Assembly (NCBI RefSeq): GCF_024519725.1
Contig: NZ_JALJRK010000010.1
Location: 53,002-117,001, forward strand
DNA length: 64,000 nt
From: Microvirga sp. Mcv34
GTDB taxonomy: Bacteria > Pseudomonadota > Alphaproteobacteria > Rhizobiales > Beijerinckiaceae
Direction: 5' to 3'
The notes below the pieces were generated by a model. The model saw only the letters and a program-made list of their open reading frames with translations. It had not been told where the DNA came from and made no database searches. Shown here piece after piece: positions 39,131 to 41,969 of the stretch. A program made the translations under genes and the position numbers. Every line of letters begins with the position of its first letter. Positions within the stretch are counted from its first letter, which is position 1.

Positions 39131-39913
39131 TCAGGGGTAGGAATGGTTGAAGAGAATCGCGCGCGGCTCCGCACGCATCGCTTCAAGGCTGCACTTCTCC
39201 GGTCCGAGCCTTCCGGCCAAGCGGGGAAAACGGGCCGCGATGTCCTCAAGCGTGATGTTCTGCGCAATGCGGGGATGAGCGACGCATAGCGCACCATCGC
39301 CCCCCCAGGCGCCCTCGAACTGCATGCCGTCCGCTTTCTCGGACGTCTGAATACCGAACCGGTCGAAGATATCGACGGAAGTGCCGTTCCGCGTCGTCGG
39401 CCGGTTATCTCCGCCGTAATCGGCGCGCAGCATGTGAACGCAAGCCCGATGGAGCTCCTGCAGCGGCAGCCCATCGCGTTTTTCCCATGGCCGGTAGCCC
39501 ATGCGAACGCATTTGCCCTCCGCACCGCTGGTGCAAGTAAAGCTGAACCCACCGGCGCCGTCAGGCATCGCAAAGCCGGCGCTACGCCCTTGAGGGTCGG
39601 ATGAGCAGAAAGGCCCCTTCTCCTCTCCGTTCGGAGAATGGATCGACAGCCTGTAAAGCAGAAGCGGGCCTCCCGTGGCAGTCTTATCCTCTTCCGCACC
39701 GTCGATCCGGACCTGGATCGCTCCCTCCTGGCCGGTCAGAACGAACCTTATTCCAATCAGGTTGTCGCCTCGCAGGACCCGACCATCCTCCAAGCTGAGC
39801 ACGAGCTCGGGTCCCTCGGCCTGAAGCCTGCCACCTGCGCCGAGGGCCATTTGGGAGAAGACGGAGGCATGCAGGATGAAGAGCAGGATGGATGCGAGGG
39901 TCGGACTGCGCAT
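39131..39913 (-). CDS. ADYC-domain secreted protein, copy 1
   Basis: The 260-residue protein starts MRSPTLASILLFILHAS and has a signal peptide ending near GAGG. The core carries TSGAEGKCVRMGYRPWEKRD and then ACVHMLRADYGGDNRPTTRN, which I take to be the Pfam ADYC domain; the motif Cys is Gly here. Six Cys in the mature chain could form disulfides. AGGA lies 8 bases before the ATG. It is the second gene of a two-gene cassette, 66 bases after an NGL-repeat peptide gene, with a terminator-like hairpin between. Its paralog at 40840 has the same neighbour. Function unknown. Confidence 0.7.
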   Translation of the reverse strand: MRSPTLASILLFILHASVFSQMALGAGGRLQAEGPELVLSLEDGRVLRGDNLIGIRFVLTGQEGAIQVRIDGAEEDKTATGGPLLLYRLSIHSPNGEEKGPFCSSDPQGRSAGFAMPDGAGGFSFTCTSGAEGKCVRMGYRPWEKRDGLPLQELHRACVHMLRADYGGDNRPTTRNGTSVDIFDRFGIQTSEKADGMQFEGAWGGDGALCVAHPRIAQNITLEDIAARFPRLAGRLGPEKCSLEAMRAEPRAILFNHSYP

Positions 39914-39928
39914 AAAGTGGATCCTGAT

Positions 39929-39958
39929 AAAAAAGTAGCCTCTCGAACGAGAGGCTAC
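39929..39958 (-). terminator. Hairpin with T tract inside cassette 1
   Basis: On the minus strand a perfect 10-bp stem (39949-39958 with 39935-39944) around a 4-base loop is followed by six T (39934-39929). It lies between the repeat-peptide gene and the ADYC gene, so it should partly end transcription after the peptide gene. Confidence 0.8.
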
Positions 39959-39979
39959 GAACTTCAAAGCAACGCTGGA

Positions 39980-40216
39980 TTACTGCCTGAGCTGAATAAC
40001 AGAGCCATCCTGCAGAATAGCCGCATCAAGCCGCATCCCCGTAGAAGCGGCGCCTTTGGGATCCTGTCCATTGGTGCTCAGGCCGTTGGTGCTCAGGCCG
40101 TTGGTGCTCAGGCCGTTGGTGCTCAGGCCGTTCATTGTCTCAGCCGCACTTGCACCAGAGGCAACCGAAAGGGTGAAGGCTATGGCAATAACCGGAAGGC
40201 AAGACTGAATACGCAT
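39980..40216 (-). CDS. Exported NGLST-repeat peptide, copy 1
   Basis: The 78-residue precursor has a signal peptide (cleavage after SGASA). Residues 29-48 are four identical NGLST pentads plus a final NG. The C-terminal tail ends GSVIQLRQ. AAGGGG lies 6 bases before the ATG. In its paralog at 41706 the repeats begin at the same residue and the tail also ends in an I-x-LR motif. Pentad periodicity recalls pentapeptide-repeat solenoids, though the consensus is not the usual A(D/N)LXX. Function unknown. Confidence 0.75.
   Translation of the reverse strand: MRIQSCLPVIAIAFTLSVASGASAAETMNGLSTNGLSTNGLSTNGLSTNGQDPKGAASTGMRLDAAILQDGSVIQLRQ
40067..40132 (-). repeat. Near-identical 15-bp tandem repeats in copy 1
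   Basis: Four 15-bp units of the form GGTGCTCAGGCCGTT (plus strand) follow each other with almost no difference and encode NGLST. Such homogeneous units indicate recent expansion or gene conversion. Confidence 0.85.
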
Positions 40217-40839
40217 ATTTATCCCCTTATATCGTATTTTCTGTGAAATGACTCAGCGGCAACCCGCCCGATCACGCAGAGAAAGTACATGTAATAACGA
40301 TTCATGCAATTAGCTAAGCGTAACTTTATGTATGCATGTTTGCATAGCTACTTTGCGTCATATTGCCGGTTGATTAGATGCTGAAGCCAACTCTATTACA
40401 GATTGAATTTGCTTCACTCTGCGTTGTTGAATATTCTCAATAGGTAACCTTAGGTAGTCTCGCCCTGAGATTGACATCGAGCCGAGACGCAGCGCTCACC
40501 CATGCGATCTTGAAGCACTGGACTGGCGCTCCCCGGCTTCTCTTGAGGCCGGAAACCGATCCGCATCGCAGGATCCGGTCATCTGCTTGTGAAAAATTGG
40601 AGAACGTCGTTCTCAAGAGAACCCTAAGGGCAATTCGAGGATCCAGCTCGGAACATCGTATACCGCCCGATCGCAGTGAGGGTTGAAGCAGGAATCAGAA
40701 TGGTGACGAGGATCATCTAAGACGTGATGAAGGAGCAGGACACACGCCTCGTGCCTGATCCGATGACGAGCAAAAAGGCGCCCCTCCTAAGAAGGACGTT
40801 GCCGACATACAGGATCGGTCGATGCCGATTGAACCTCCG
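40217..40839. other. AT-rich gap between the two cassettes
   Basis: These 623 bases are AT-rich to about 40450 and more balanced after that. They should hold the promoter of cassette 1 on the minus strand. A 6-bp inverted repeat GAGAAC-GTC-GTTCTC lies at 40600-40614. A plus-strand frame at 40471-40686 has no ribosome binding site or known family. I see no gene or RNA I can support. Confidence 0.5.
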
Positions 40840-41643
40840 CTAGCGCTTGTCGCTGCGCGAGGTCAAAACGGACTGGTTGTAAAGCAGCGCCAGCGGATCA
40901 GCGCGCATGGCCTCTTCTGAGCAGACATGCGGCCCCAGCCTTCCACGCAACCGGGGATAGCGCTCGGCCAATTCCTCAAGGGTGATATTGTCGGCAATGC
41001 GCGTGTGAGAAACACAGACAGCTCCCTCGGCCCCCCACGCCGCCTCGAAGGCCATTCCCGGCGCCGGGTCGGGATGCTGAATGCCGAGGCGATCGTAGAT
41101 GTTTACTGCGGTGCCATCCCGTGTCGTGGGACGATCGTCACCGCCGTAATCCGCGCGCAGCATATGCACACATGCCTTATGCAGATCACGCAAGGGAACG
41201 CCGTCCCGCGTCTCCCAGGGGCGATAGCCGAAAAGGATGCACTTGCCTTCCGCGCCGCTGGTGCAGGTGATGGAGAATCCTCCCGCGTCATTAGGAAAGG
41301 CAAAGGCCGCACGCTCGCCGTCGGGATCAGCCGCACACAAGGATTGCGATGCTCCTGTGGCGGTATCCTGGAGCGACATGCGGTAGAAAGCAATTTCGCG
41401 CTTAGCGAGCGGGCCATTGCGGACGATGTCGTCGATGCGAATGTCGGTTTGGTTCGGGGGCTGGCCAGCCGTGAGGGTCAGGCCGACCAATCCGTCGCCT
41501 TTCAACACGGTTCCGTCACTCAGTCGGAGCGTGAGATCCAGGCCCTCGAGGACAAAGCGCCCTTCCCTCGCAAGGGCCGGCGCAGCAAGAAGAGCAAGAA
41601 TGAAGGCGCCAATCCGAAGGAAGAAGAACAAGGGATTGTGCAT
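40840..41643 (-). CDS. ADYC-domain secreted protein, copy 2
   Basis: The 267-residue protein has a signal peptide ending in APALA. It shares with copy 1 the segments FSITCTSGAEGKC, GYRPWETRDGVPL, ACVHMLRADYGGDDRPTTRD and, near the end, RIADNITLEELAERYPRLRG. The two copies are clearly paralogous but well diverged, so the duplication is not recent. It follows the NGL-repeat peptide gene by 62 bases with a perfect hairpin between. Function unknown; probably exported. Confidence 0.72.
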   Translation of the reverse strand: MHNPLFFFLRIGAFILALLAAPALAREGRFVLEGLDLTLRLSDGTVLKGDGLVGLTLTAGQPPNQTDIRIDDIVRNGPLAKREIAFYRMSLQDTATGASQSLCAADPDGERAAFAFPNDAGGFSITCTSGAEGKCILFGYRPWETRDGVPLRDLHKACVHMLRADYGGDDRPTTRDGTAVNIYDRLGIQHPDPAPGMAFEAAWGAEGAVCVSHTRIADNITLEELAERYPRLRGRLGPHVCSEEAMRADPLALLYNQSVLTSRSDKR

Positions 41644-41657
41644 TGGACAATGAATTT

Positions 41658-41682
41658 GCCCCTTCGCCAGGAGCGAAGGGGC
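41658..41682. other. Perfect hairpin inside cassette 2
   Basis: GCCCCTTCGC (41658-41667) and GCGAAGGGGC (41673-41682) pair perfectly around 5 bases, in the same position as the terminator of cassette 1. On the minus (coding) strand it is followed by AAATTC rather than a T tract, so it would stabilise or block rather than end transcription. The plus strand has a pyrimidine-rich tail. Confidence 0.7.
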
Positions 41683-41705
41683 TTCTTCTCTTCACTGACA
41701 AGCGA

Positions 41706-41969
41706 TCAGCGCAGCTCGATGCGCTCGCCGTTCGGAAAAGCAACGCTCTGCACAGCCAGAGTTTGCGAAGCCCTGCCGTTCACGGTGAGGCCGTTCAGGG
41801 TCAGGCCATTCAGCGTCAGACCATTCACGGTGAGACCGTTTACAGTAAGACCATTCAACGTCAGGCCATTCAAGGTGAGACCGTTGGCGACCTCGGCGGC
41901 GTACGCGGCCGATCCCGCCGAGATTCCGACGGCAAGTGCCAAGATGGCGGTTTTCGAACGAAGAGACAT
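41706..41969 (-). CDS. Exported NGLTL-repeat peptide, copy 2
   Basis: The 87-residue precursor has a signal peptide (cleavage near AAYAAE). Residues 29-63 are seven NGLT(L/V) pentads plus a final NGR, followed by a tail ending GERIELR. GAGGG lies about 7 bases before the ATG. Unlike copy 1, the pentad codons have diverged while the protein pattern is kept, so the pattern is under selection. It leads the second cassette; its ADYC partner follows at 41643. Confidence 0.75.
   Translation of the reverse strand: MSLRSKTAILALAVGISAGSAAYAAEVANGLTLNGLTLNGLTVNGLTVNGLTLNGLTLNGLTVNGRASQTLAVQSVAFPNGERIELR
41775..41885 (-). repeat. Diverged 15-bp tandem repeats in copy 2
   Basis: Seven 15-bp units encode NGLT(L/V). 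Units differ from each other at several synonymous positions, e.g. GTTCACGGTGAGGCC versus ATTCAGCGTCAGACC on the plus strand. Confidence 0.85.

Follow-up and report, generated by a model that had tools for sequence, protein, structure and literature searches.

The two cassettes of the window

The subject of this analysis is a pair of neighbouring two-gene cassettes in Microvirga sp. Mcv34 (contig NZ_JALJRK010000010.1), found in a stretch of 64,000 nucleotides which, at its full length, is referred to here as the window. Both cassettes lie on the minus strand, at 41969-40840 and 40216-39131, as an earlier note on this DNA had claimed, and each consists of a gene for a small peptide with five-residue repeats (pentads), followed by a gene for a protein with the ADYC domain (PF20032). 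This two-gene arrangement is real and general, and it is undescribed as far as the searches reach.

In the first cassette, the open reading frame of the peptide pep1 (87 residues, 41706..41969) codes for a signal-peptide-like N-terminus (residues 1-24), a series of pentads, and a C-terminal tail, AVQSVAFPNGERIELR (41709..41756). The pentads (41775..41885) are seven NGLT(L/V) units plus NG, in which the amino acids are constant, with L or V in the last position, and the codons have diverged. As the residues have been kept despite the varied codons, it is likely that selection holds the sequence of pep1. The second peptide, pep2 (78 residues, 39980..40216), has four NGLST pentads, then NG, and a tail, DAAILQDGSVIQLRQ (39983..40027), which is predicted to form a beta-hairpin. 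These pentads are coded by a perfect tandem array with a 15-bp period (40071..40132, 4.1 copies, 100% matches), and the four complete units are identical 15-mers at the DNA level, which points to a likely recent expansion or homogenisation of the repeats. The signal peptides of both were judged by a hydrophobicity score of our own and by reading the sequence. The pentads begin at residue 29 in pep1 and pep2 alike, in agreement with the note, and the I-x-LR ending that it ascribed to both is found in pep1, which ends in RIELR, but not strictly in pep2, which ends in VIQLRQ, one residue past LR.

Each peptide gene is followed, after 62 bases in the first cassette and 66 in the second, the very sizes claimed before, by the gene of a predicted exported protein, i.e., ADYC1 (267 residues, 40840..41643) and ADYC2 (260 residues, 39131..39913). 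Both match the whole PF20032 profile at residues 49-216, with 150 bits (1e-43) and 144.3 bits (5.7e-42), respectively, against a curated cut-off of 27 bits, and they are indeed well diverged, with 53% identity over 247 residues. The motif reads ADYG in both, confirming the glycine reported in place of the motif cysteine, and both are still members of the family, given that it is the profile, not the letters, that defines it. Pentads and ADYC domain are not joined in one reading frame, as they are in the single-chain proteins described below, and belong to separate genes: pep1 and ADYC1 lie in different frames, and pep2 and ADYC2 share a frame with a TAA stop between them.

A stem-loop is found between the two genes of each cassette, at 41658..41682 (z score of the gap, -4.0) and at 39935..39958 (-3.1). 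The position claimed to be conserved for this hairpin holds insofar as both gaps contain one, but only the second precedes a run of T on the sense strand; six T follow the loop of cassette 2, in the manner of an intrinsic terminator, and the loop of cassette 1 has no such run. Across the loci, folding with z < -2 was found in 34/42 of the peptide-ADYC gaps of at least 25 bases (33/42 in a repeat run; four gaps were too short), and in the control stretches in 10/42 cases before the peptide, 5/42 after ADYC, and 1/42 inside ADYC. Given that the stem sequences vary between loci, it is the structure, and not the sequence, that is kept, and the stem-loop may be a partial terminator or a protector of the mRNA end, which would give the peptide in excess of ADYC.

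Pairing and co-inheritance of the two genes

ADYC is present in 32/37 Microvirga genomes, against 0/24 other genomes of the same order, and in 9/11 further Microvirga genomes, and the peptide profile matches in 40/48 genomes of the genus. As this profile (A2) was built from 21 ADYC-adjacent peptides, 17 of them from Microvirga, the positives there arise partly by construction, and the informative results are the absence of the peptide in ADYC-negative genomes and the positions of the matches. The 48 genomes comprise 40 with both genes, seven with neither, one with only an ADYC fragment (G438), and none with the peptide alone (Fisher p 1.1e-7, with the genomes treated as independent). Among the distinct peptide places, 59/60 share a contig with ADYC (55 within 1 kb, the farthest at 3.5 kb, median 208 bp), and the remaining one is located at the end of a 6-kb contig.

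A same-strand peptide lies upstream of 47/47 Microvirga ADYC genes for which upstream DNA is available and which exceed a mere fragment, this set being the 50 ADYC matches (41 and 9 in the two groups of genomes) minus two fragments (G021:C28 and G438) and a gene at a contig start (G025:C704:140). Four loci were counted as peptide-bearing with incomplete genes, three of them having a broken or interrupted ADYC frame (L077, L094, and L099) and one lying at a contig edge, where just the end of the peptide is present (L069). Two or three peptides precede a single ADYC at several loci (L048, L067, L098, and L101). The conserved spacing described by the earlier note applies within the window, where the two gaps are similar, but it is not strict elsewhere, the gaps ranging from 15 to 137 bases in Microvirga, with 43-70 being most common, and from 2 to 195 outside the genus. 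ADYC genes lacking an adjacent peptide, or co-occurrence at the level of chance, had been named as findings that would speak against the pairing, and the counts obtained in Microvirga (47/47 genes, and 40 genomes with both, none with the peptide alone, one with ADYC alone, and seven with neither) are of neither kind. The two ADYC remnants, L052 (G021:C28) and L097 (G438), have no adjoining peptide that could be found, as if both genes decay together.

The peptide and ADYC are inherited together, without reshuffling. In a mirror test of 37 Microvirga pairs, the peptide and ADYC distances are correlated with r=0.78, and 0/2000 random pairings reached a value as high; the peptide distances were taken from the signal peptide plus the tail, with the repeats excluded, and the test covered 37 of the 47 pairs, omitting L069, L077, and eight loci that were added later. 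Seven genomes have two pairs each, and among the 128 possible ways of swapping partners within these genomes, the true assignment comes first. The proposal that the two-gene pairing has been kept as a unit is thus upheld by its near-perfect joint occurrence across genomes and by this joint inheritance.

Outside Microvirga, ADYC is rare, being found in 6/397 genomes of the order sample, 3/385 of the class sample, and 2/398 of the phylum sample, with the own genome included each time. A peptide lies upstream at 9/10 readable ADYC loci (those of G123, G150, G318, G383, G578, and G1116, and three Mesorhizobium loci), with the units NALTT, NALSI, NALDS, NSLTS, and LNGxx. In this count, G901 was set aside, as its gene lies at a contig start, and L038 was included, of which only the end of the peptide was read. 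This last locus (~4300-5540, Mesorhizobium amorphae CCBAU 01570) has an ADYC frame that shifts within the domain, with the end of a peptide gene upstream.

On the other hand, adjacency, co-inheritance, and joint absence would also be given by a simple operon, in which the two products are co-regulated and reach the same compartment without any contact, their adjacency being kept by shared expression only. No interface between them has been seen, as such a pair would have it; the gene order (not the spacing), which is kept outside Microvirga too, and the single-chain relatives with both parts, which argue for contact, make this reading unlikely.

In the order sample, where 14 candidates per genome were scored, the peptide profile matched in 6/397 genomes, five with ADYC (G000, G123, G150, G318, and G383, all of which are represented in A2) and one without (G364), and the ADYC-positive G136 was not matched. 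The match in G364 (L119:4134-4460) is a lone peptide of the NGMPY type with approximately ten units and the tail KKSILQQLAESPLQ. The protein P0156, with NGLHM units, is also without a DG tail. Other pentad peptides may, then, have partners other than ADYC.

The cassettes of the window occupy an interval of ~3.2 kb between a dihydrouridine synthase gene (PF01207, 42262..43320, minus strand) and an aspartyl-protease-like gene (PF13975, 38446..39096, plus strand), which form the borders of the site. Among the seven Microvirga genomes without ADYC, five have their matches to the two flanking genes ~57-127 bases apart (empty sites); in the remaining ones, the flanks are ~1.2 kb apart in one, and the synthase is outside the stretch examined in the other. 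Each flanking family is present in 22/44 loci in a rough, uncleaned clustering of neighbours, suggesting that the site of the window is shared by about half of them. Next to the synthase lies a gene for a small protein (43361-43768, plus strand) with a signal-like stretch, the motif YAPGQQ twice, and no Pfam match, and at 44315-44965 (minus strand) a gene for UreE (PF05194, PF02814) with a very long histidine-rich tail.

The strict co-occurrence of the genes, which are cleanly present or absent at a single site, could also be the mark of a toxin-immunity or toxin-antitoxin module. As both parts are found in one chain elsewhere, however, such a module is highly improbable.

Repeat units, single-chain relatives, and cysteines

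The features that recur in the peptide family are an asparagine at five-residue intervals and, in most members, a tail of the form x-V-x-L-x-D-G-x-x-V-x-L-K/R. The tail is the best-kept part of the family: DG or NG occurs within the last 12 residues in 42/46 distinct peptides from Microvirga and other genomes, including those with few units. The number of units in register reaches a maximum of 24, and it is one in 7/46 peptides (one of these being the doubtful candidate of G136). As the tail is kept where the units are few, it looks more important than the number of repeats.

The units are near-identical within a peptide and differ between peptides (NGLST, NGLSV, NGLSA, and NGLAF), as might be expected if the peptide were a precursor cut into multiple copies of a signal or modified peptide, the pentads being the product units and ADYC a processing or receptor partner. 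This is quite improbable, given the 7/46 peptides with one unit in register and the existence of single-chain forms; in addition, no obvious cleavage sites between units are apparent by eye, and no shared modifying enzyme or exporter was recognised in the rough clustering of neighbours.

The earlier note had suggested that ADYC domains can follow repeats of this type in one chain, and such proteins do exist. With the ADYC domain of G578 as the query, a search in which the best 7997 word-sharing candidates were scored yielded 60 proteins of at least 304 residues, and in 32/60 of these at least four in-register units precede the domain motif, against 39/6000 shuffled N-termini and 0/120 short ADYC proteins (120 of the 525 ADYC matches). 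At least three units are present in 42/60 of the long proteins and in 544/6000 shuffles. A unit was counted here when N, Q, K, D, or S stands before G, A, S, or R. PF00805 scores above its cut-off in three of the six single-chain proteins scanned (P0205, P0212, and P0234) and does not in P0209, P0210, and P0217; it is listed for five of the 60 long proteins, which adds P0200 and P0208, and GLTT is listed for one, P0232. The long protein P0241 is named Kofleriaceae. Given that many of the long proteins carry the pentads in cis, and that the pentads stand in trans next to those short ADYC proteins that were examined, the reasoning applied to gene fusions suggests that the two parts act together, and the single-chain relatives are the best evidence for this. 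One further protein, P0185, has LNG pentads and an ADYC domain of the short type in one predicted frame, midway along which lies a signal-peptide-like stretch; it is possibly an intermediate between the split and the one-chain arrangement, or else its start has been mis-called.

In a read-through model, the tail of pep2 is predicted as a beta-hairpin with strands at residues 38-43 and 49-52, and in the single-chain protein P0209, the later pentads have a predicted local distance difference test (pLDDT) score of 56-76 by block, with the last pentads predicted as strands ahead of ADYC.

Within the ADYC domain, six of the eight cysteine positions are kept in 169-170/170 aligned relatives. The other two, i.e., the motif cysteine and a C-terminal Cys-Pro site, occur together in 93 sequences and are jointly absent from 77, with no discordant case. 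The alignment comprises P0001-P0120 and P0185-P0244, from which ten of the 180 proteins (P0186, P0188, P0194, P0237, and P0239-P0244) were dropped beforehand for their extra domains or strong divergence. As the two cysteines always co-vary, the pattern is that expected of a facultative disulfide that joins the motif cysteine to the Cys-Pro site. ADYC1 and ADYC2 differ from the usual family motif in reading ADYG, and the second cysteine is absent from them too; this paired loss indicates that the glycine of Microvirga likely marks a lost bridge rather than a lost catalytic residue. No paper on the ADYC domain was found in the literature searched, where papers with the word ADYC were unrelated.

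The 6-8 conserved cysteines of ADYC, the position of the peptide gene ahead of it, and the fact that the best-kept part of the peptide is a short C-terminal tail would all suit a folding helper or detachable propeptide that assists a disulfide-rich periplasmic ADYC and is then discarded. Such a helper would not, however, be expected to have long repeat arms that can expand, or to occur as several peptides for one ADYC, and in the single chains the pentads belong to the protein itself, so that this alternative is considered improbable.

Proposed mechanism and comparison with known systems

Beyond what is observed, namely the adjacency of the two genes, their joint presence or absence, their co-inheritance, the stem-loop between them, and the relatives with pentads before ADYC in a single chain, it seems on balance somewhat probable that each cassette is a copy of a conserved unit of two genes, whose products, predicted to be exported, bind to each other as separate halves of a protein found elsewhere as a single chain. 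Peptide and ADYC would both leave the cytoplasm, and the C-terminal tail of the peptide, as a predicted beta-hairpin, may dock on the N-terminal beta region of ADYC, i.e., the place that the last pentads of a single-chain protein would occupy in cis. The pentads would then provide an arm of variable length, from 1 to 24 units in register, which has probably changed through slippage in steps of 15 bp, and the stem-loop may allow more peptide than ADYC to be made. As to where the pair acts, the cell surface and the periplasm are no more than guesses.

A number of observations weigh against binding of this kind. The docking of the tail is inferred, not observed, and because adjacent genes share their ancestry, the mirror test speaks for joint inheritance without reshuffling and not for binding. 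The model of the tail hairpin was made without relatives, and its confidence is modest, with mean pLDDT values of 54 (residues 31-40), 72 (41-50), and 47 (51-60); the pentads lie below 50 in this read-through model, as does the first third of the repeats in P0209 (residues 50-73), so that a solenoid is not supported. A comparison of the tail with the hairpins of ADYC itself gave no likeness beyond chance (4/43 above the 99% null). In 18/60 long ADYC proteins, there is no run of three units. In addition, G136, the sole miss among the readable loci outside Microvirga, has a doubtful peptide candidate without pentads, the pentad peptide of G364 has a different tail and stands in a genome without ADYC, and no relative of known function was found.

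A more specific, and doubtful, extension of the binding hypothesis is that the ADYC head has an incomplete beta-rich fold, which the hairpin of the peptide completes in trans, with an outward arm that is tuned by slippage and arms supplied in excess through the stem-loop, giving a modular surface coat. If this were true, the reach of the coat would evolve within species.

The pairing gives the ADYC domain a near-constant partner, which some of the proteins carry in cis and others have in trans. It also represents a small and genetically tidy system of two genes, absent from some Microvirga, whose function is open to deletion study, and it defines a probably exported peptide family that is coded by minisatellites and is mostly listed in databases as “hypothetical protein”.

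Among the known repeat families, the peptides of the window resemble the PF00805 proteins in their five-residue period, glycine, and recurring hydrophobic residue, and neither pep1 nor pep2 matches this profile at E<=1. The criterion for pentapeptide repeats is at least eight contiguous consensus repeats (PMC8145042), and pep2, with five N-G units in register, is below eight, while pep1 has eight when a partial one is counted. The best registers, LTLNG and LSTNG, depart from the 2019 pentapeptide consensus at two of the five positions (PMC8145042). A likeness of style, rather than one of compared sequences, exists with YjbI of Caulobacter crescentus, a secreted pentapeptide repeat protein that is reported to be asymmetric on the envelope surface and to control the composition of the outer membrane (PMC12864828). 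Like it, the peptides of the window are pentad proteins of an alphaproteobacterium, with their export predicted; unlike them, YjbI has 183 residues and a predicted quadrilateral beta-helix, and ADYC is absent from the main text of that paper.

The GLTT repeat (PF01744) matches pep2 with 33.5 bits (3.3e-08) against a cut-off of 21, and pep1 falls below it with 17.7 bits. This family was defined on nematode proteins, and the match likely reflects a shared simple repeat only; the literature searched yielded no paper on the GLTT repeat, and nothing relevant on secreted repeat peptides of Microvirga.

Internal terminators have been reported to control the stoichiometry of ABC (ATP-binding cassette) transporters in Clostridia (PMC9045158). 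The stem-loops of the window are similar to these in directly following a gene for a product that might be required in larger amounts, and their effect is a putative one.

Finally, the single-chain proteins (e.g., P0205, P0209, P0212, and P0234) resemble the pair of the window in having pentads ahead of the ADYC domain, and several of them have an N-terminus that, by eye, is lipoprotein-like. Each is the product of one gene, in which pentads of mostly the LNGxx or LQGxx type run into ADYC, whereas in the window the parts are coded by two genes with a stem-loop in between, and the tail is separate.

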